The notes under the pieces were generated by a model. That model saw only the letters and a program-made list of their open reading frames with translations, ran no database searches and was not told where the DNA came from. A program made the translations under genes and the position numbers. Shown in pieces: positions 860 through 21,426 of a stretch of DNA of 24,699 nt. Each line of letters starts with the position of its first letter. Position 1 is the first letter of the stretch. The stretch lies in IMG/VR virus record IMGVR_UViG_3300033182_000628, positions 1-24,699 of that record, one strand, 5' to 3'. The DNA is from a virus.

Positions 860-1409
860 TCTTAATGATCTTATCCATGTCTATGAAGATGCATTAGACC
901 CTGAGATTTGTGATTTTTTGATTACTACATTTGATGGTGCATCAAAACATCACGAATCCGTTCAGAATGAAGGAAAACCAAACTTCACTCAGTTTAATCT
1001 GACAAAAAATTCTGATGTCACAGACGAGTTGAGTAAAATACATAAGCACATCATTAAAAGAGTGCAATACTACCGCGATGTCTATTATGAGTTTGTGGAT
1101 GCCAGAGTGTTTCCTTCTACACATGCATTTGAACAATTTCGGATAAAGAGGTATAATACTGGTGGTGAGGATAGGTTTGGTACACATGTCGATGTAGCAG
1201 ACTATTCTTCTGCCAGAAGGTTTCTCTCTTTTATGTTTTATCTGAATGATGTTTCGGAAGGTGGAGAGACAGTTTTTAGAGATAAAAAGATTACTCCAAA
1301 GAAAGGATCTCTTTTAGTATTTCCTCCTCTGTGGATGTATCCCCATCGTGGTGATCCTCCTATTAGTAATCCAAAGTATATTATGAGCACTTATTTGCAC
1401 TATAAGTAA
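852..1409 (+). CDS. 2-oxoglutarate/Fe(II)-dependent oxygenase (prolyl-4-hydroxylase-like)
   Basis: This 185-residue protein has the double-stranded beta-helix oxygenase pattern. The iron ligands are H112 and D114 ([11 protein letters not shown]) with a distal H165 (YPHRGDPP). A basic residue near K175 is placed to bind 2-oxoglutarate. The segment [12 protein letters not shown] (about 131-142) is characteristic of the prolyl-4-hydroxylase-like subgroup. I chose the ATG at 852, inside the end of uvsX, over the upstream TTG at 831, because it gives a short overlap typical of this genome. The stop TAA shares its last A with the ATG of the helicase gene. Such oxygenases are common in marine cyanophages, but their substrates are mostly unknown. 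The position between uvsX and gp41 makes a DNA- or replication-related substrate conceivable, which is inference only. Confidence 0.88.
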
Positions 1410-2041
1410 TGGAAAGAATCGAAACCACTATTCTCAGAAACTTAATACACAGTGAGGATTATTCTCGTAAAGTCATTCCATTTATTGAACCAACATACTT
1501 TGAACAACGAACGGAGAAGGTAATCTTTGAGGAGATTGCCAAGTTCATAGTCAAGTACGGTTCTGCTATTACAACAGAAGCTCTAAATATTGAGGTTGAG
1601 AATAGGACTGATCTAAACGAGAGTGAAATTAAAGAGACAAGAGAAATTTGTAATTCTTTTAATGACTCTCCAGTAGATCATCAATGGTTGCTAGACACCA
1701 CTGAAAAGTGGTGCCGAGATCGTGCGATTTATCTTGCCTTGATGGAATCAATCCACATTGCAGATGGTAATGATGAAAAGAAAAATCGGGATGCCATTCC
1801 CAGTATTCTTTCTGATGCACTGGCAGTTTCTTTTGACAATAATATTGGACACGACTACTTACAAAACTACGAAGAAAGATATGAGTTCTATCACAAGAAG
1901 GAAGACAAGATTCCATTTGATCTCGAATACTTTAACAAAATCACAAAAGGTGGTTTACCTAACAAGACTCTTAACATCGCGCTTGCTGGTTGTGTTCATC
2001 CAGAGACCAAAGTTAAAATTAGGTTTAGGAAGATTTCTTGA
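1409..2041 (+). CDS. 41: gp41 replicative helicase, N-terminal half fused to a 16-residue N-intein
   Basis: This is the N-terminal part of the T4 gp41-type (DnaB-like) replicative helicase. Residues 1-194 are the DnaB-like N-terminal region and the start of the RecA-like core, ending ...LNIALAG. Residues 195-210 begin with Cys (CVHPETKVKI), a typical intein block A, and run to a TGA at 2039-2041. The break falls inside the Walker A loop. Joining residue 194 to the T encoded at 3105 restores [A]GTGVGKS, so the protein can bind ATP only after ligation. Length fits: 194 residues here plus 265 from the second half gives 459, close to the roughly 475 of T4 gp41. The ATG overlaps the preceding stop (TAATG). 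Trans-splicing is inferred from the complete set of intein end motifs; a simple broken gene is less likely. Confidence 0.9.
   Translation: MERIETTILRNLIHSEDYSRKVIPFIEPTYFEQRTEKVIFEEIAKFIVKYGSAITTEALNIEVENRTDLNESEIKETREICNSFNDSPVDHQWLLDTTEKWCRDRAIYLALMESIHIADGNDEKKNRDAIPSILSDALAVSFDNNIGHDYLQNYEERYEFYHKKEDKIPFDLEYFNKITKGGLPNKTLNIALAGCVHPETKVKIRFRKIS
1991..2038 (+). other. N-intein fragment (16 residues) of a split intein in gp41
   Basis: The segment starts with the catalytic Cys1 (TGT at 1991-1993) and reads CVHPETKVKI and a short basic tail, matching intein block A. It is far shorter than the roughly 90-100 residues of canonical split N-inteins. It resembles the atypically split inteins known from T4-like phage genes in metagenomes (AceL-TerL and VidaL types, with N-fragments of about 16-25 residues). 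The splice junction is between G194 of the extein and C195. Confidence 0.85.
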
Positions 2042-2693
2042 TTTTGGAGTTTGGTGCTGGTTCTCCTGTTCCAAACTTCCAACCTTCATTTAATTTACTA
2101 TCAACATTTTCTGGCAGTATTCTTTTCCATCCTTTTGTTCCTGGTAAGTGCATCACCTTCTTACCTTTGTGTGCTTTTCCTCCAAGAGATGCTCTTTCTT
2201 TTCTTCCTTGATTGGACGCCCAGTAATTGAATTCTTTGGATGCTCTTTGCTTTCCTCCAAGAGATGCTCTTTCCTTTCTCCCTTCTTCTGTACTCCAATA
2301 ATAAAAGTTTTTAGTATTGTTGTGTAAGTATTCTTGTTTTTGAGTTTCTATTCCTTTAATCATCCATTCTTTCCTTTCTTCTATTGGTATAGAAAATAAA
2401 CCAATTTGATTATCTCTACAAAACTCTCCTGTTATTCTTCTGTGTTGTGGAGATAAGTTTGCTCCTAGCATTTTCATAGATCTTAAATCATTAGGATTTT
2501 TATGAATCTTCCATAGCAAATAATGTGCTATGATGTGCTCTCTAACATTTAAATATGTAAGGTTACATTCTTCATCCGTTCCTCCCATATGTTTAGGAAC
2601 AATATGATGCTCGTGTAACCCAGAATATTTTTTATGGTTTTCTTTCCTTGACTTATTGCTTTCGCATAAGTTAGAATAGATTTGATTAAACAT
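2025..2693 (-). CDS. HNH homing endonuclease nested antisense in the split gp41 locus
   Basis: The 222-residue protein has an HNH core: EHHIVPKHMGG with H29-H30, then N44 (ECNLTYL) and H53/H57 (REHIIAHYLLWKI). The C-terminal half contains a repeated GRKERASLGGK unit (about residues 137-147 and 162-172), probably a DNA-binding module like those of other phage HNH enzymes. It lies on the opposite strand to every other gene here and fills the space between the two gp41 halves, overlapping the N-intein stop by 17 bases. A Shine-Dalgarno-like AGGGAG lies just before its ATG, and a TATAAATA late-promoter box lies 24 bases upstream on the same strand. The shared HHIxPxxxGGTDxExNL pattern places it in the same family as the HNH gene at 16810. 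It probably cuts an uninterrupted gp41 allele to spread the intein cassette (inference). Confidence 0.9.
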   Translation of the reverse strand: MFNQIYSNLCESNKSRKENHKKYSGLHEHHIVPKHMGGTDEECNLTYLNVREHIIAHYLLWKIHKNPNDLRSMKMLGANLSPQHRRITGEFCRDNQIGLFSIPIEERKEWMIKGIETQKQEYLHNNTKNFYYWSTEEGRKERASLGGKQRASKEFNYWASNQGRKERASLGGKAHKGKKVMHLPGTKGWKRILPENVDSKLNEGWKFGTGEPAPNSKIKKSS

Positions 2694-2717
2694 TTTCTCC
2701 CTGTCCCTGCTACTGAT

Positions 2718-2725
2718 TATTTATA
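2718..2725 (-). promoter_or_regulatory. T4-type late promoter for the antisense HNH gene
   Basis: The minus strand reads TATAAATA here, an exact match to the T4/cyanophage late promoter box. The HNH start codon is 24 bases downstream. The box lies in the 36-base gap between the divergent starts at 2693 and 2730. Confidence 0.7.
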
Positions 2726-2729
2726 TAAA

Positions 2730-3104
2730 ATGTGGATTGAAAAAGAAACATCAATTGCTGAAATCAAAACATTACTTGATAATGGATATGAGGTAGAAGT
2801 TGATTCTCCCGATGGATATGTTCCTGTTAATTTTTTCATTAACAAGGGAATGTATGATGAATATGTTTTAAAGGTTGATGGTTATGAACCAATCAAATGT
2901 AATGCCGATCATTTATTTGAAACATCTTTTGGATGGATGAAAGCATCGGATCTTTATGAAAAATACAAGATAATGCATTTTTTGACTAGAGATGGATATA
3001 AACTTGGAAGTGTATTTAAAACTGGAAATCAAATACCTATTGTGGATATTAATGTAAATCATCCAAATCATAGGTACTATACTGATGGAGTTTCTTCTCA
3101 TAAT
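2730..3104 (+). other. C-intein fragment (125 residues) of the split gp41 intein
   Basis: Block B appears as IKCNADHLF, with H61 of the usual TxxH placed as NADH. Block F/G is VDINVNHPNHRYY..GVSSHN, with the penultimate His and terminal Asn, followed by a +1 Thr extein residue. Added to the 16-residue N-fragment, the intein totals about 141 residues. That is the size of a mini-intein without an endonuclease domain and agrees with the endonuclease being a separate gene. Confidence 0.87.
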
Positions 3105-3902
3105 ACTGGAGTTGGAAAATCGTTGTTTATGTGCCACGTCGCTAGCTCCGTGCTGCTCCAAGGACGGAACGTTCTCTACATTACAATGGAGATGGCAGAA
3201 GAGAAGATTGCTGAGCGAATTGATGCAAACCTCCTGAATGTTCCAATTCAGGATCTGACAGATCTTCCTAAAAAGACTTTTGAAACCAAAGTTAATAAGT
3301 TGGCAGCAAAGACTCAGGGAACTCTTATAATTAAAGAATACCCGACTGCATCAGCACATAGTGGACACTTTAAGGCACTTCTTAATGAGCTTGCACTTAA
3401 GAAGTCATTTAGACCTGATATTATTTTCATTGATTACCTTAATATATGTGCTTCCTCCCGCTATAAGTCGGGTATGTCTGTCAATTCATATAGCTATATT
3501 AAAGCTATTGCAGAGGAGCTTAGAGGGTTGGCTGTTGAGGCAAAAGTCCCTATCGTATCTGCCACGCAGACCACTCGTAGCGGTTTTGGTAGTTCTGATC
3601 CAGAATTGACCGATACGAGTGAGTCTTTTGGTTTGCCTGCTACTGCTGATCTTATGTTTGCCCTTATTAGCACTGAAGAACTTGAACAGTTGGGGCAGAT
3701 TATGGTAAAACAGTTAAAAAATCGTTATTCTTCAACTGATAAATATAAGAGGTTCGTGTTAGGAATTGATAGAGCAAAAATGCGTCTTTATGATTGTGAG
3801 CAAACCGCTCAAAGGGATATTTTAGATTCTGGTAAAGATGAAGATTTTGTTTATGCTGATGAACCAAAAATAAAAAAATCATTTGATGGATTTAAATTCT
3901 AA
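2730..3902 (+). CDS. 41: gp41 replicative helicase, C-terminal half preceded by the C-intein
   Basis: Residues 1-125 are the C-terminal intein fragment, ending in VSSHN. From T126 (codon at 3105) the protein is the helicase RecA-like core: GVGKS completes Walker A, followed by YITMEMAEEKIAERID (about 150-165), IIFIDYLN (Walker B), VSATQTTRSGF, and a basic RFVLGIDRAKMR segment near the end. It unwinds the lagging-strand template at the phage fork, working with the gp61 primase encoded at 13492. I chose the ATG at 2730; an in-frame TTG at 2682 would add 16 residues and overlap the antisense HNH start. No clear Shine-Dalgarno precedes 2730, so its initiation is an open point. The last 27 codons (3819-3899) have a diverged duplicate at the end of the next gene. 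The stop overlaps the ATG of the GIY-YIG gene. Confidence 0.9.
   Translation: MWIEKETSIAEIKTLLDNGYEVEVDSPDGYVPVNFFINKGMYDEYVLKVDGYEPIKCNADHLFETSFGWMKASDLYEKYKIMHFLTRDGYKLGSVFKTGNQIPIVDINVNHPNHRYYTDGVSSHNTGVGKSLFMCHVASSVLLQGRNVLYITMEMAEEKIAERIDANLLNVPIQDLTDLPKKTFETKVNKLAAKTQGTLIIKEYPTASAHSGHFKALLNELALKKSFRPDIIFIDYLNICASSRYKSGMSVNSYSYIKAIAEELRGLAVEAKVPIVSATQTTRSGFGSSDPELTDTSESFGLPATADLMFALISTEELEQLGQIMVKQLKNRYSSTDKYKRFVLGIDRAKMRLYDCEQTAQRDILDSGKDEDFVYADEPKIKKSFDGFKF
3819..3902 (+). repeat. gp41 tail copy 1 (recoded, carried by gp41)
   Basis: This is the last 27 codons and stop of gp41, starting ILDSG and ending SFDGFKF. It pairs with 4538-4621: 18 of 27 residues are identical, while several identical residues use different codons (ILDSG reads ATT TTA GAT TCT GGT here and ATA CTT GAC TCT GGA there). 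Both copies end with the same TAATG junction. Confidence 0.85.
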
Positions 3903-4537
3903 TGGGCATTATTTACTGTATTCATAGTTTATCTACTGGTAAAAAGTACATAGGGCAAACTATTGAAAAAATGCAGAGAAGAGTTTTGCGTCATTTTAGA
4001 ACTATAAATGAAACTAAAATTAGTAGGGCAATTAAAAAATATGGTAAATGTGATTTTGTTTATGGTATAGTTGAAGAAACGGAAGATAAAAATTTATTAG
4101 ATGAAAGAGAAAAATATTGGATAAAATATTATGATTCTATAGATAATGGATTTAATATTAAAGAAGGTGGTAAATGTGCAAGAGGGTTTAAACAATCTGA
4201 AAGTTCTATAGAAAAAAGAAGACAAAAATTAATTGGAAGACCTTTAAGTGTGGAGCATAGAAAAAGTATAAGTAAAGCACATAAAGGGAAAGTTTTATCA
4301 AAAGAAACTGTTGATAAAATGATTGCATATAGAACGGGCAAAAAACTTACTGATAGTTGTAAAGAAAAAATTGCTTTATCTCATAGCAAAAACATTTATC
4401 AATTAGAAAACATAGATGGAACTATTCTAATAATAAAAAATCTCGCACAGTTTTGTAGAGATAATAAGTTTTCTCAAAGTTATTTTACTCGTATTTTAAA
4501 GGGAGAAAGGAAAACTTATAAAGGATGGACTATCAAG
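3819..4537 (+). mobile_element. GIY-YIG homing cassette inserted at the 3' end of gp41
   Basis: The proposed insert consists of a recoded gp41 tail (3819-3902) and the GIY-YIG/NUMOD3 coding region up to the displaced original tail (4538). The insertion keeps gp41 full length and keeps the TAATG coupling to the downstream mazG gene. The exact left boundary is uncertain by some tens of bases. The cassette is more A+T-rich than its neighbours. Confidence 0.65.
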
Positions 4538-4621
4538 ATACTTGACTCTGGACAGGATGAAGAGTATAATGATTACGAAGAAAAGAAACCCAAAAAATCA
4601 TTCGACGGATTTAAATTTTAA
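3902..4621 (+). CDS. GIY-YIG homing endonuclease with NUMOD3 repeats, fused to a displaced gp41 tail
   Basis: The N-terminal GIY-YIG nuclease domain (about residues 1-90) shows IIYCI, KKYIG (14-18), the catalytic-type R27, a Glu near 68-70 (DEREKYW) and GFNIKEGGK. Residues 95-165 carry several NUMOD3-like DNA-binding repeats (SVEHRKSISKAHKGK and similar). Residues 165-212 resemble the helix-turn-helix tail of I-TevI-like enzymes, ending GWTIK. Residues 213-239 are unrelated to such enzymes and match the gp41 C-terminus. The gene starts on the gp41 stop (TAATG) and its own stop overlaps the mazG ATG. It is A+T-rich relative to neighbours. It likely cleaves the 3' end of uninvaded gp41 genes; target and activity are inferred. 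Confidence 0.9.
   Translation: MGIIYCIHSLSTGKKYIGQTIEKMQRRVLRHFRTINETKISRAIKKYGKCDFVYGIVEETEDKNLLDEREKYWIKYYDSIDNGFNIKEGGKCARGFKQSESSIEKRRQKLIGRPLSVEHRKSISKAHKGKVLSKETVDKMIAYRTGKKLTDSCKEKIALSHSKNIYQLENIDGTILIIKNLAQFCRDNKFSQSYFTRILKGERKTYKGWTIKILDSGQDEEYNDYEEKKPKKSFDGFKF
4538..4621 (+). repeat. gp41 tail copy 2 (displaced, fused to the GIY-YIG gene)
   Basis: This is a diverged duplicate of the gp41 C-terminal 27 codons plus stop. It sits directly before mazG with the TAATG junction expected for an uninterrupted gp41-mazG pair. It is therefore probably the ancestral gp41 end, now read as the C-terminus of the endonuclease. Confidence 0.8.
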
Positions 4622-5031
4622 TGACTAAGCATATTGATTTTGAACGCTATCAAAAATTTGTTGATGCGGTTACTAGCGATGCCTCTACTGATTTTGTCGC
4701 TCTTTCCGACCGCCTTGTTGCCCTTGATGAGAAGGGTGCCAATATTGAGCGACTTCTTACTGCAGGTGTTGGTATTAATGCTGAGGGTGGGGAGTTTCTT
4801 GAAATCATCAAGAAGATGGTTTTTCAGGGAAAACCTTGGAACGACGATAACCGTGAGCATCTTATTATTGAACTCGGTGATCTTATGTGGTACGTTGCTC
4901 AAGCCTGCATGGCACTCGATGTTTCATTCGATGATGTGATTGCTCGCAACGTCAAGAAACTTGAGAAGCGTTATCCTGAAGGCACCTTTGATGTTTACTT
5001 CTCTGAAAACCGTGCTGCTGACGACCGATGA
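4621..5031 (+). CDS. mazG: MazG-like nucleotide pyrophosphohydrolase
   Basis: A 136-residue all-alpha NTP pyrophosphohydrolase. The metal-binding pattern EXXE...EXXD is present as E58-E61 (GEFLE) and E84-D87 (IELGDLMWY), followed by NVKKLEKRYPEGTF (110-123), the usual end of phage MazG domains. Members hydrolyse nucleoside triphosphates to monophosphates. Cyanophage MazG has been discussed both in relation to (p)ppGpp control and as a deoxynucleotide-pool enzyme. Context favours nucleotide metabolism: it sits in the replication operon and nrdA/nrdB lie further along. It starts on the stop of the GIY-YIG gene (TAATG), presumably inherited from the original gp41-mazG junction, and ends in an ATGA overlap with the next ORF. 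Confidence 0.88.
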   Translation: MTKHIDFERYQKFVDAVTSDASTDFVALSDRLVALDEKGANIERLLTAGVGINAEGGEFLEIIKKMVFQGKPWNDDNREHLIIELGDLMWYVAQACMALDVSFDDVIARNVKKLEKRYPEGTFDVYFSENRAADDR

Positions 5032-5223: not shown

Positions 5224-5297
5224 GGGGAATTAACTCAGTCTGGTAGAGTGCGACCTTTGCAAGGTCGAAGTCAGGAGTTCGAGTCTCCTATTCTCCA
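5224..5297 (+). tRNA. tRNA-Ala (anticodon TGC)
   Basis: A full cloverleaf of 74 bases. The acceptor stem is GGGGAAT/ATTCTCC with one G-T pair. The D stem is ACTC/GAGT. The anticodon stem CGACC/GGTCG encloses TTTGCAA (anticodon TGC). The T stem AGGAG/CTCCT encloses TTCGAGT. The discriminator is A and CCA is not encoded. Loops and the TTCGA motif are canonical. Cyanomyoviruses often carry tRNAs, thought to match phage codon use. Confidence 0.93.
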
Positions 5298-5334
5298 CTT
5301 CTAAATAGATTATACAGGTATAATCAAAATAACG

Positions 5335-16809: not shown

Positions 16810-17523
16810 ATGGACTATAAGAAACATTATAATTTACTAATACAAAAAGCACTCAATAGAAATATTGAGTGCTATGTTGAACAACATCATATTATTCCAA
16901 GATGCTTGGGTGGAACTGATGATGAATTAAATTTGATACAATTAACTCCAGAAGAGCATTTTATTGCACATAAACTTCTCACTAAGATTTATCCAAATAA
17001 TTTAAAGTTATTATATGCTTTTAATTTTATGTCTGCTCCCGTTTCTGGAAGAAATATAAACAATAAAAAATTTGGATTTGTTAGAAAAGAAATTTCTAGA
17101 CTAATGCAAGGTGACTTGAATCCCATAAAAAGATTTCCAGAAAAAAATCATATGCGAGGAAAATTTGGAAAAAATCATCCTGCTTATGGTAGAATAGTTA
17201 GTGATTATGAGAGGCAAAAAAATTCTAAAAGAATGAAAATTAATAACCCTTGTAAAGGTCTTTCTCCTTGGAATCATCCCAGATGTGATGATTATAATAA
17301 AAAAATATGGGTTTTTGCGGATGAGTATTATAATGAATGGAAAATAACGAAAGAATCTTACTGCGCTTTATCTAAAAAATTTGGATATGAAAAATACACT
17401 GCTTCTCATATTAATATGATTAAAAAATTTAAATCTGGATGGATACCAGATCAAGATTCTGAGTGGATTAAGTTCAAACAATTATTTTCAAAAAATTTAA
17501 CTTCGTTAAATATTACATTGTGA
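16810..17523 (+). CDS. HNH homing endonuclease between nrdA and nrdB
   Basis: 237 residues. The HNH core lies at 24-57: VEQHHIIPRCLGGTDDELNL with H26-H27 and N41, then EEHFIAHKLLTKI with H50/H54. The middle is Lys/Asn-rich with FGKNHPAYGR, a NUMOD-like element; the C-terminus (SHINMIKKFKSGW) resembles the DNA-contacting tail of similar enzymes. It is markedly A+T-rich compared with nrdA and nrdB and has its own late promoter, so it reads as an inserted free-standing homing gene. The core is of the same family as the antisense HNH at 2025. The insertion leaves both nrd reading frames open. The target is presumably an nrdA-nrdB junction lacking the insert. Confidence 0.9.
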   Translation: MDYKKHYNLLIQKALNRNIECYVEQHHIIPRCLGGTDDELNLIQLTPEEHFIAHKLLTKIYPNNLKLLYAFNFMSAPVSGRNINNKKFGFVRKEISRLMQGDLNPIKRFPEKNHMRGKFGKNHPAYGRIVSDYERQKNSKRMKINNPCKGLSPWNHPRCDDYNKKIWVFADEYYNEWKITKESYCALSKKFGYEKYTASHINMIKKFKSGWIPDQDSEWIKFKQLFSKNLTSLNITL

Positions 17524-17544: not shown

Positions 17545-18726
17545 ATGCCATTTAGTTTTAAAACAAACAAAGAAGAACGACCAATGGTTGAGTCCATGAC
17601 AGTTTTTAACTCTAACGAGGTTGATACAAAGAAACAACCAATGTTCTTTGGTCAACCACTAGGCATTCAGAGATATGATTCTTACAAATATCCAATCTTT
17701 GAAAAACTTACAACACAACAACTAGGTTACTTTTGGAGACCCGAGGAGGTCTCCCTCCAAAAAGATCGTGGTGATTATCAATCACTGCGTCCAGAACAAA
17801 AGCATATCTTTACCAGCAATCTGAAGTATCAGATTATGCTGGACTCTGTTCAGGGTCGTGGACCTGGTATGGCATTTGCTCCATACTGCTCCCTTCCTGA
17901 ACTGGAGGCTTGTATGAAGGTGTGGGAATTCATGGAAATGATTCACTCACGCTCCTACACTTATATTATCAAAAACGTTTATTCGGACCCATCTGAGGTT
18001 TTTGATACCATCCTCAAAGAGGATCGTATTATGGAGCGTGCAGTAACCGTTACACAAGCGTATAACGATTTTATTAATTCGGCACATCAGTATGATAATT
18101 CTGCTGAGTGGTTGCACGCATTAGAACAAGTCCCCTACGCACAAGAGGCAAGGTATGAACTCAAGCGTAAGCTCTATAGAGCAGTTGCAAACGTTAATAT
18201 TCTTGAAGGTATTCGCTTTTACGTGTCATTTGCTTGCAGTTTTGCTTTTGGCGAACTCAAGCTTATGGAAGGAAGTGCAAAAATCATCTCCCTAATTGCT
18301 AGGGATGAGAATCAGCACTTGGTCATTACTCAAAACATTCTTAAAAACTGGATGAACGGTGATGACCCAGAGATGAAGCAGATTGCCAAAGAAGAAGAGC
18401 AATGGTTGTACAAAGCGTTTGAGAATGCAGTCAATCAAGAAAAGTATTGGGCAGAGTATCTGTTCAAGGATGGTTCTATGATTGGTCTGAATGACAAACT
18501 GTTACAGCAGTATGTTGAATGGATTGCCAATCGTAGAATGAAAGCAATCGGACTCAAACCACTCTATGACATTGCCGCAAAGAATAATCCACTTCCTTGG
18601 ACAGAGCACTGGATTTCTTCTAAAGGTCTTCAAGTGGCACCCCAACAAACTCAAGTGCAGTCATATATTGTTGGAGGAATCAAACAAGATGTTACCGAAA
18701 ATTCTTTCTCAGGATTCCAGTTGTGA
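17545..18726 (+). CDS. nrdB: Ribonucleotide reductase class Ia, small subunit
   Basis: 393 residues. All di-iron ligands are present: D100 (MLDSV), E131 and H134 (EMIHSRSY), E221 (LEGIRFY), E255 and H258 (RDENQH). The radical tyrosine Y138 sits four residues after H134 as in E. coli. It generates the tyrosyl radical used by NrdA. With the start favoured by the AAGGAG site, the protein has about 17 extra N-terminal residues before MTVFNSNEV, the segment that matches the T4 NrdB start. The extra stretch might date from the HNH insertion upstream. The C-terminus VTENSFSGFQL, needed for docking to NrdA, is encoded at 18691-18723 and has a synonymous duplicate at 19788. Confidence 0.95.
   Translation: MPFSFKTNKEERPMVESMTVFNSNEVDTKKQPMFFGQPLGIQRYDSYKYPIFEKLTTQQLGYFWRPEEVSLQKDRGDYQSLRPEQKHIFTSNLKYQIMLDSVQGRGPGMAFAPYCSLPELEACMKVWEFMEMIHSRSYTYIIKNVYSDPSEVFDTILKEDRIMERAVTVTQAYNDFINSAHQYDNSAEWLHALEQVPYAQEARYELKRKLYRAVANVNILEGIRFYVSFACSFAFGELKLMEGSAKIISLIARDENQHLVITQNILKNWMNGDDPEMKQIAKEEEQWLYKAFENAVNQEKYWAEYLFKDGSMIGLNDKLLQQYVEWIANRRMKAIGLKPLYDIAAKNNPLPWTEHWISSKGLQVAPQQTQVQSYIVGGIKQDVTENSFSGFQL
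18691..18726 (+). repeat. nrdB tail copy 1 (on nrdB)
   Basis: The last 11 codons plus stop of nrdB (VTENSFSGFQL). It matches 19788-19823 at 30 of 33 coding bases. The three differences (GTT/GTC, ACC/ACA, TCT/TCC) are all synonymous third positions. The stop differs (TGA here, TAA there). Confidence 0.9.
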
Positions 18727-18762
18727 TTGACATTAAGACTGAAGTAGTGTATTATATAAATA
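18727..18762 (+). promoter_or_regulatory. Overlapping sigma70-like and T4-late promoters
   Basis: TTGACA (18727-18732), a 17-base spacer and TATTAT (18750-18755) form a near-consensus host-type promoter. TATAAATA (18755-18762) overlaps its -10 by one base. Both point at the GIY-YIG gene at 18784, which could thus be read early and late. Confidence 0.7.
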
Positions 18763-18783: not shown

Positions 18784-19398
18784 ATGAATAACTACATTCT
18801 TTATTATTACTTGAGGGAGGACTTTAGTTCTCCCTTCTATATTGGTTATGGAAAACCAAGGAGAATACACGCAAAACATTTAAGAAGTAATGGTGCAAAC
18901 CTACTACCTCCAAGGGAAAGAAGGTGGATTGTAAAATCTGGATTAACCAAAGAAGAAGCAATAAAACTTGAGATAAAACATATAGCACTCTGGAAAAGAG
19001 AGTGTGATGGTGGAGTTTTACTCAACCAGAATTTGGGGGGAGAAGGAAAACCTGGAGGACAAAAAACTAAAGGATTTAGTGGAAGAAAACATAGTGAAGA
19101 AGCAAAGAAAAGAATAAGTGAAAAGGTTGCAGGTAAGAATAATCCAAGATATGGTGTTAAATTATCACAAGAGACAAAAAATAAGATAAGTCAAAACATA
19201 ACACCAAAATTTGGTAAAGATAATCCAAACTCTAAAACTTGGAAGATTGTTTCTCCACAAAATAAAGAGTATATTATTACTGGAGCATTAAAAGAGTTTT
19301 GTAAGTCTCAAAATATTTCATATGCAACTATGCACGCAGCAATTCTTTATGATAGAAAAGGTCCAAGAAGAAATGGATGGAGTATTGAGAAAATTTAA
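18784..19398 (+). CDS. GIY-YIG homing endonuclease with NUMOD3 repeats
   Basis: 204 residues. The N-terminal GIY-YIG domain (1-90) shows YILYYYL, PFYIGYG (17-23), a basic R26-R27, a candidate catalytic E63 (IKLEIKHI) and LLNQNLGGEG. Two or more NUMOD3-like repeats follow (SGRKHSEEAKKRISEKVAGK; GVKLSQETKNKIS). A C-terminal helix-turn-helix-like element runs from TWKIVSP to GWSIEKI. The arrangement equals that of the gp41-associated enzyme at 3902, but the sequences differ enough to be separate acquisitions. It begins 57 bases after the nrdB stop, under its own promoters, and is followed 1 base later by an unknown gene. The likely target is the 3' end of nrdB in phages lacking the cassette. Confidence 0.9.
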   Translation: MNNYILYYYLREDFSSPFYIGYGKPRRIHAKHLRSNGANLLPPRERRWIVKSGLTKEEAIKLEIKHIALWKRECDGGVLLNQNLGGEGKPGGQKTKGFSGRKHSEEAKKRISEKVAGKNNPRYGVKLSQETKNKISQNITPKFGKDNPNSKTWKIVSPQNKEYIITGALKEFCKSQNISYATMHAAILYDRKGPRRNGWSIEKI

Positions 19399-19399
19399 A

Positions 19400-19786
19400 A
19401 TGTCTCTACCAGAAGATGTGTGTGTAATAAAACTTCAGGAGTATTGTAAGTTTTCTTCTACACTATTAAAAATACCAGTCATATCCAAACCATTATGTGT
19501 AGATGCAAATTGTCATAATAATGTAAATTATTATGTGAATACTTATGGTGGGGAAAAAATAAGTGGTTATTATCTAATTACGGATGTTGATAATGAAACT
19601 TATGGGTGTGCAATATATCATAGTATCTGGAAAAATACTTATGGTGATTTAATAGATATAACACCTTTTGAAGATAAAAGAAGATATAATATGTTTTCCA
19701 TCTCCAATAATACAGAATATTACTCTGGAGTTGTCTATGATGGGAACACTTATAGAATATTAGAACCAGGTTGCAATATAATCTAA
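19400..19786 (+). CDS. Cargo protein of the nrdB cassette; unknown, with a Cys-His-Asp pattern
   Basis: 128 residues from the ATG at 19400, directly after the GIY-YIG stop. I do not recognise a named family. A conserved-looking core reads CVDANCHNNV (C38/H39), GYYLI, then YHSIW (H74), then GDLIDITP (D86). This order recalls small bacterial proteins with a C..H..D arrangement of the CFxN...HAVW...DVTP kind, and a Cys-His-Asp catalytic site or a metal site is possible. There is no signal peptide or membrane segment. It lies inside the cassette, its stop overlaps the ATG of the next gene, and its composition matches the endonuclease. It may be passenger DNA, an accessory factor or a host-directed effector. 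Confidence 0.72.
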   Translation: MSLPEDVCVIKLQEYCKFSSTLLKIPVISKPLCVDANCHNNVNYYVNTYGGEKISGYYLITDVDNETYGCAIYHSIWKNTYGDLIDITPFEDKRRYNMFSISNNTEYYSGVVYDGNTYRILEPGCNII

Positions 19787-19959
19787 TGTCACAGAAAATT
19801 CCTTCTCAGGATTCCAGTTGTAAGGGAAACTGTAACTGTAACTGCTTAAAACCAGAAGATGCTTTAAAGGCATACCAAGAAGCAGCAGACTGCGATGAAT
19901 ATCTCTTCGGGGATTATGATTATTGTTCGGAATGGATGAATGATATAGAGGGTCTTTGA
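19786..19959 (+). CDS. Small Cys-rich acidic protein downstream of nrdB
   Basis: 57 residues from the ATG at 19786 (TAATG with the previous stop). The first 11 or so codons re-use the displaced nrdB tail in another frame. The rest has a CKGNCNCNC cluster and an acidic, aromatic end (DYDYCSEWMNDIEGL). Six Cys in 57 residues suggest a metal-binding or redox role, perhaps linked to ribonucleotide reduction given its original place just after nrdB; this is inference. In an uninvaded ancestor it probably overlapped the end of nrdB or started just after it. Its stop codon lies in the stem-loop of a terminator. Confidence 0.65.
   Translation: MSQKIPSQDSSCKGNCNCNCLKPEDALKAYQEAADCDEYLFGDYDYCSEWMNDIEGL
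19788..19823 (+). repeat. nrdB tail copy 2 (remnant)
   Basis: Encodes VTENSFSGFQL and a TAA stop. In this frame there is a stop just upstream (19779), so it is no longer translated as part of nrdB. It is the presumed original nrdB end left on the far side of the cassette. Confidence 0.85.
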
Positions 19960-20952: not shown

Positions 20953-21426
20953 ATGAGCTTGGATATAAATACTAATGTAAGTTATGAAAATCCATGGACG
21001 TTTGATAACAAACCTTTTGATAGTAATGATATTGGGGATTACTTCGGGTTTGTTTATCTCATTACCAATAAGTCCAACCAACGAAAATACCTTGGGAGGA
21101 AGTATTTTTGGTCGTTCAGAAAACCACCAGGTAAAAAAAGAAAAGTAAAACAAGAATCGGATTGGAAGAAGTATTACGGTTCTTGCCCAGAATTAAAAGA
21201 GGATTTAAAAAAATACGGTAAAGAGACTTTCAATAGAGAAATAATAAGTCTCCACACCACGAAGGGTAATTGTAATTTTGAGGAAACAAAACAGTTATTC
21301 TTAAATAATGTCTTATCTGAGGCACTTGACGACGGCAGTCCAGCATACTACAATAGCAACATCCTTGGACGCTACATGCGAAAAGATTATGGTAACTTTG
21401 GAAGACACCCTGAAATTGACACATGA
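20953..21426 (+). CDS. SegE-like GIY-YIG domain protein
   Basis: 157 residues. The segment GFVYLITNKSNQRKYLGRKYF is a GIY-YIG variant (VYLI...KYLG), followed by a basic KPPGKKRKVKQ region, DWKKYYGSCPELKEDLKKYGKETFNREII and a C-terminal YYNSNILGRYMRKDYG. This is the pattern of the T4 SegE-type putative endonucleases, which are widespread in T4-like marine phages. Unlike the two GIY-YIG genes at 3902 and 18784 it has no NUMOD3 repeats, its composition matches the surrounding genes, and there is no sign of an interrupted host gene, so it looks like a long-term resident. It overlaps the next ORF by 38 bases. Confidence 0.85.
   Translation: MSLDINTNVSYENPWTFDNKPFDSNDIGDYFGFVYLITNKSNQRKYLGRKYFWSFRKPPGKKRKVKQESDWKKYYGSCPELKEDLKKYGKETFNREIISLHTTKGNCNFEETKQLFLNNVLSEALDDGSPAYYNSNILGRYMRKDYGNFGRHPEIDT

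Follow-up and report, generated by a model that had tools for sequence, protein, structure and literature searches.

Mobile open reading frames (ORFs) that bring a foreign C-terminus to the gene they enter have been described in fungal mitochondria, in atp6 of Allomyces macrogynus and in atp6, atp9, cox2 and nad3 of Glomus (PMC3630166). The native C-terminus in these cases matches close relatives at 91–98%, versus 64–81% for the substitute; the atp9 element encodes a GIY-YIG enzyme, and the native tail goes unexpressed at atp6 and cox2 (PMC3630166). Duplicated host-gene ends are also known from mitochondrial introns of Tremella, where they accompany intron-type insertions and are described as N-terminal duplications (PMC7315562). 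In phage T4, the passages of a review that we searched describe SegF, SegG, SegA and SegE as free-standing GIY-YIG endonucleases located between phage genes; several seg genes are promoterless and overlap the upstream ORF, and the enzymes target the neighboring gene with co-conversion of its flanks (PMC2988022). A substitute tail, a displaced native tail or an embedded downstream promoter is not mentioned in those passages, and our search of the open-access literature, with subscription papers outside its range, found no phage precedent for tail replacement.

The locus described here lies in a 24,699-nt stretch of viral DNA (the window) whose source is a T4-like cyanophage. As in the fungal mobile ORFs, an element occupies the 3′ end of an essential gene, bearing a divergent substitute C-terminus with the native one downstream (PMC3630166); in the window, the upstream gene is a hybrid and the downstream native C-terminus is the one closest to relatives. 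Unlike the fungal examples, the cassette resides in a dsDNA phage, and the native tail forms an in-frame extension of the endonuclease that contains the next gene's conserved promoter-like sequence. The likeness is therefore one of layout alone, such that the cassette works like the fungal elements rather than being a member of their family, but it extends to phages a layout described in fungal mitochondria. With the T4 Seg enzymes, as far as the review passages describe them, it shares enzyme class, position between genes and co-conversion (PMC2988022). Exchange of gene fragments through element mobility is common to the Tremella introns, which differ in being fungal mitochondrial and intron-type (PMC7315562).

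We consider it probable, at roughly 85%, that a free-standing GIY-YIG cassette entered the 3′ end of gp41, that the substitute tail and its adjoining tract are mobile with the enzyme gene, and that the native tail was kept for the promoter and start of mazG. Were this so, a selfish gene with neither intron nor intein could insert itself into an essential phage gene at no apparent cost.

The gp41 locus and its duplicated tail

The N-terminal half of gp41 and a short split-intein N fragment (CVHPETKVKIRFRKIS) occupy positions 1409–2041 on the plus strand, as judged from the ORF list, the translation and a weak Pfam match to the DnaB N-terminal domain. A split-intein C fragment and the C-terminal helicase half follow at 2733–3902, also on the plus strand, with helicase sequence from 3105 (DnaB_C, Pfam E = 1.2×10−17). 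We take the gene (1409–3902) to be divided by a split intein whose N fragment is very short; the arrangement, with an HNH-like ORF between the halves (2025–2693, opposite strand), is presumably of the fractured-gene type. The gp41 stop overlaps the start of the GIY-YIG ORF (3902–4621) in a TAATG, and a second TAATG joins the end of this ORF to the start of mazG (4621–5031, plus strand; Pfam MazG, E = 5.2×10−10; 96% identical to mazG of locus L129). A tRNA-Ala (TGC) lies downstream of mazG at 5224–5298.

The endonuclease body (3902–4537, plus strand) comprises a catalytic domain (about residues 1–82), a NUMOD3-like motif (about 112–130) and a C-terminal domain that runs to WTIK (residue 212). 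It matches the Pfam GIY-YIG model above the cut-off (PF01541, E = 1.5×10−8); beyond this, Pfam gives only a sub-threshold NUMOD3 match and no match to the SegE model. The best match in the PDB is the catalytic domain of I-TevI (E = 2×10−6). The IIY..YIG motifs and candidate R, E and N residues, which we presume to be catalytic, are invariant across 10 homologues. Catalytic domain and motifs thus mark the protein as a predicted GIY-YIG homing endonuclease with putative cleavage activity. Elsewhere in the window, an ORF at 20953–21426 is SegE-like (Pfam SegE_GIY-YIG, E = 3.5×10−56).

gp41 terminates at 3819–3902 (tail 1, plus strand) with ILDSGKDEDFVYADEPKIKKSFDGFKF and a stop codon, and the endonuclease ORF terminates at 4538–4621 (tail 2, plus strand) with ILDSGQDEEYNDYEEKKPKKSFDGFKF and a stop codon. 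A first-pass annotation of the window had pointed out that the final 27 residues of gp41 recur at the C-terminus of the endonuclease, and the coordinates, frames and counts it gave are exact: 18 of 27 residues are identical, four of the five ILDSG codons differ between the copies, and both copies terminate in TAATG. At the nucleotide level the tails are identical at 59 of 84 positions. The pair is the longest direct repeat that a repeat scan detected in the window (80 nt, 73%), and its protein-level score against shuffled tails corresponds to z = 13.4; the repeat is thus not due to chance.

Close homologues of the endonuclease (73–95% identity over residues 1–211) are present on about twenty further IMG/VR contigs, directly behind gp41 wherever flanks exist, so that no close homologue with flanks carries the tail away from gp41. 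The invaded set consists of 14 loci, or 13 distinct ones, window included, if L084 and L085 are counted once because they have gp41 and the endonuclease in common; all 13 have one common layout. Phage isolates yielded no example of the gp41 cassette: in no record did the match extend over 80% of the query (3400–5031), and the endonuclease body had no high-identity counterpart among the matches listed. The protein H107 of Synechococcus phage MA10 is a distant homologue amid hypothetical genes, with no annotated gp41 adjoining.

The retained tail and its promoter-like site

In phages that lack the insert, gp41 runs directly into the next gene. mazG begins within 20 nt of the gp41 stop in 111 of 164 uninvaded IMG/VR loci, and Synechococcus phage S-SRM01 and other isolates have the empty layout with gp41 overlapping a pyrophosphatase gene. 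The closest empty-site relative, L129, has the gp41 tail ILDSGQDEEYNDYEDKKPKKSFDGFKF, which is identical to tail 2 at 79 of 84 nucleotides and to tail 1 at 57 of 84 (68%); its mazG is 96–97% identical to that of the window, and identity over tail 2 and mazG is in the range of 94–97%. The proposal that the copy fused to the endonuclease is native and the one in gp41 a substitute is borne out across the set, where 13 of 14 invaded loci have a tail 2 that resembles the local empty-site relative more closely than tail 1 does, although the loci are related and Fisher and sign tests on such counts overstate their independence. The sole exception, L099, has lost the protein tail. No uninvaded tail exceeds 78% identity to the copy at 3819–3902 or to any other tail 1, whereas tail 2 reaches 98% identity to empty sites. 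All of this evidence comes from comparing the sequences of environmental contigs.

Tail 2 contains a sigma70-like promoter sequence, TTGACT-N17-TATAAT, upstream of mazG (4542–4570, plus strand). With 11 of 12 consensus positions it is the top-scoring site in the surrounding 2.2-kb region. Of the 130 distinct uninvaded tails, 122 have a promoter-like site with at least 10 of 12 consensus positions at this offset, as does every one of the 13 examples of tail 2; none of the 13 examples of tail 1 does. Synonymous reshuffling with gp41 codon usage produces such a site in 48 of the 130 tails, compared with 122 in the real sequences. The codon pair CTT-GAC occurs in 115 uninvaded tails, while GAC makes up 26% of gp41 Asp codons, and the site reaches 95% conservation at its position, against 36% for the next best position within the final 600 nt of gp41. 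Given the reshuffling result, the CTT-GAC bias and the limit of 36% at any other position, conservation of the protein alone is insufficient to account for the site. Wobble positions within the hexamers are nearly fixed (third base of GAC, 97%; TAT, 96%; AAT, 97%), and neighboring positions vary.

Two invaded loci separate the site from the coding sequence. In L097 the tail has an in-frame stop eight codons in, with TTGACT-17-TATGAT still in place, and L099, having lost the protein tail, retains TTGACT-17-TAAAAT in position. Because the boxes are kept where coding capacity has been lost, we favor a reading of the retained part as the putative promoter and start region of mazG, with the fused peptide as a by-product. 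The promoter-like sequence can in this way explain why the native tail is kept at all. Divergence between the tails might additionally lower the rate at which the cassette is deleted by direct-repeat recombination.

It is rather unlikely that tail 2 lacks a promoter function and serves only as a right-hand homology arm for homing and as the stop/start coupling with mazG. Crossovers do fall within it, since L084 and L085 are identical in their gp41 end, tail 1 and endonuclease, differ in mazG (77%) and switch within tail 2, and a TAATG-type overlap is retained in several loci. However, mazG itself would supply homology, and the near-fixed wobble positions of the hexamers among variable neighbors and the persistence of the boxes after coding is lost also speak against this reading.

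We regard as quite improbable the idea that tail 2 was kept as part of the enzyme, for folding, DNA binding or docking in the manner of gp41. The frame is open in 11 of the 13 distinct loci and is read in phase with the endonuclease, but in L097 and L099 the tail is truncated or lost while the endonuclease body is intact and the promoter-like site remains at its exact position. The first-pass annotation had called the tail foreign to GIY-YIG enzymes, and homology agrees: alignments of most unrelated homologues extend only to query residues 203–219, around the tail boundary at 213, with one longer GIY-YIG match reaching residue 228 at 25% identity. An AlphaFold model based on 10 homologues, poor overall (pLDDT 48), gives the tail no structure.

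The mobile tract and the predicted target

In comparisons with invaded phages of the main clade, the window is mostly 80–100% identical from about 3720 to 4537, with lower values on either side. This is the footprint of spread, in which one cassette occurs in differing genetic backgrounds for which empty sites are known. The swap was originally taken to be limited to the tail; the 84-nt tail is indeed duplicated, but the substituted part of gp41 is a tract of ∼180 nt that starts at about 3720. Both the identity profile and a codon table place this element-type tract at 3720–3902 (plus strand), and invaded phages share it even where their mazG flanks differ.

The most marked element-specific change is found 75–90 nt upstream of the tail. 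Among the 60 codons before the tail, those at 3729–3746 read TCT TCA ACT GAT AAA TAT in invaded phages, with few variants, and mostly AAY GAY CCN ACN ATY plus one variable codon in uninvaded phages. The SSTDK codons (3729–3743, plus strand) thereby replace NDPTI-like codons in 13 of 13 invaded loci and in none of 133 uninvaded ones. A search of the IMG/VR viral collection for coding sequence of the pattern SSTDKYKR returned 17 stretches. Thirteen of these were read, with the endonuclease next in 12 and one ending too early; the other four belong to contigs in which the endonuclease had been found before (L095 and the contigs of L093, L094 and L082).

The substitute tail travels with the endonuclease, and the retained tail is local. 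Within the main clade tail 1 is mostly 82–98% identical despite differing mazG types, and it varies in step with the endonuclease (Mantel r = 0.68, P = 0.0005), as do the last 120 nt of gp41 before the tail (0.78); no covariation of tail 1 with mazG was detected (r = 0.17, P = 0.23). Across all pairs, similarity of tail 2 is likewise uncorrelated with that of mazG (r = 0.19, P = 0.19) but correlates with that of the endonuclease (0.56), and so tail 2 is probably a frequent site of the right crossover, or else conversion has taken place. Both tails end alike in L093/L098 (KFSGFKF) and in L097 (KKTFEGFKF), which suggests exchange between the copies or several origins of tail 1. Such endings, found in several clades, would also suit a tandem duplication of the gp41 tail within each lineage followed by drift of the first copy, but this is highly improbable, as the tails of one genome are only 64–71% identical while tail 1 is shared between hosts with differing flanks, empty sites resemble tail 2 and not tail 1, and the upstream tract is substituted too.

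If a GIY-YIG cassette did enter gp41 as we propose, the mobile unit would consist of the endonuclease ORF and, ahead of it, the gp41 3′ tract that starts at about 3720 and includes the SSTDK-type motif, tail 1 and its stop. The insertion point would lie 4 nt upstream of where the −35 box begins in the promoter embedded in the gp41 tail. Tail 1 would supply gp41 with a working C-terminus, and the native tail, now downstream, would keep an active promoter and the start region for mazG while being read as a dispensable extension of the endonuclease.

The first-pass annotation was right in placing the cassette in the gp41 3′ end with the original tail fused to the enzyme. Its further suggestion, that the recoded tail protects the carrier by altering a target within it, does not hold in that form: native tail DNA is still present at 4538–4621, and thus the target cannot lie wholly within the tail. 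We infer instead that the enzyme would cut uninvaded gp41 in the SSTDK-equivalent region of the upstream tract or across the insertion point, and that the changed tract may render the carrier resistant. SSTDK could alternatively be a marker of the donor lineage rather than the target. The I-TevI cleavage motif CNNNG is not a consistent mark of uninvaded tracts, being present in 75 of 159. A hidden promoter inside gp41 and the endonuclease target are the direct predictions of our reading.

A parallel arrangement at nrdB

The repeat scan detected a second duplicated gene end in the window (D3), in which the nrdB tail occurs twice (18689–18741 and 19786–19838) on either side of a NUMOD3-type endonuclease gene and a small ORF. 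The nrdB tail itself is at 18689–18726 (plus strand). The endonuclease gene (18784–19398, plus strand) has a NUMOD3 domain (Pfam E = 3.4×10−13) and is GIY-YIG-like, its GIY-YIG class being presumptive; among its 80 IMG/VR relatives, nearly all of those shown lie behind nrdB. Repeat scan and locus comparisons point to the segment at 19786–19822 (plus strand) as the presumed displaced native nrdB tail, which also provides the first codons of an overlapping downstream ORF. Immediately behind the nrdB stop, the sequence TTGACA-N17-TATTAT (18724–18760) lies in DNA largely conserved among carriers and is possibly the endonuclease's own promoter. Between nrdA and nrdB, an ORF at 16810–17523 resembles an HNH homing endonuclease and has no Pfam match.

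The invaded nrdB set comprises 80 loci (79 from IMG/VR and the window). A displaced nrdB tail is found downstream in 51 of these, versus 1 of 77 uninvaded loci, and counting only good downstream matches, the displaced copy is closer than the nrdB tail to the empty relative in 24 of 26. In most loci listed, a conserved ORF of ∼50 codons has its start codon where the displaced part begins. In uninvaded phages this ORF and the end of nrdB share 38 nt, 61 of 77 having an overlapping ORF of at least 30 codons; in invaded ones its frame is open when read from the displaced tail in 45 of 51 loci and when read from the tail of nrdB proper in none of 80. Unlike at gp41, we found no strong element-specific recoding of the invaded nrdB tail. 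For the window's own nrdB copy, where no close empty relative turned up, the comparison of tails (26 versus 28 of 36) favors neither.

Both loci fit one rule: each of two genes with overlapping information ends up with a copy of its own once the cassette is in place. Their occurrence in one window suggests a general mode by which phage homing genes enter gene-dense genomes, with overlapping information separated so that the upstream gene receives a substitute end and the native end remains as the promoter (gp41/mazG) or start region (nrdB and the gene overlapping it) of the next gene; we give this generalization even odds. If true, it would make insertion harmless where genes overlap. It also suggests that essential replication genes of cyanophages have repeatedly lost their 3′ ends to replacement by mobile elements, which would disturb gp41 and nrdB gene trees. 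A scan of other GIY-YIG loci returned one weak lead only, with a score just above those of shuffled sequences and differing stops: in L117 and L118, the sequence ILTNHINI is repeated in what is possibly a displaced gene end behind a GIY-YIG-like ORF.
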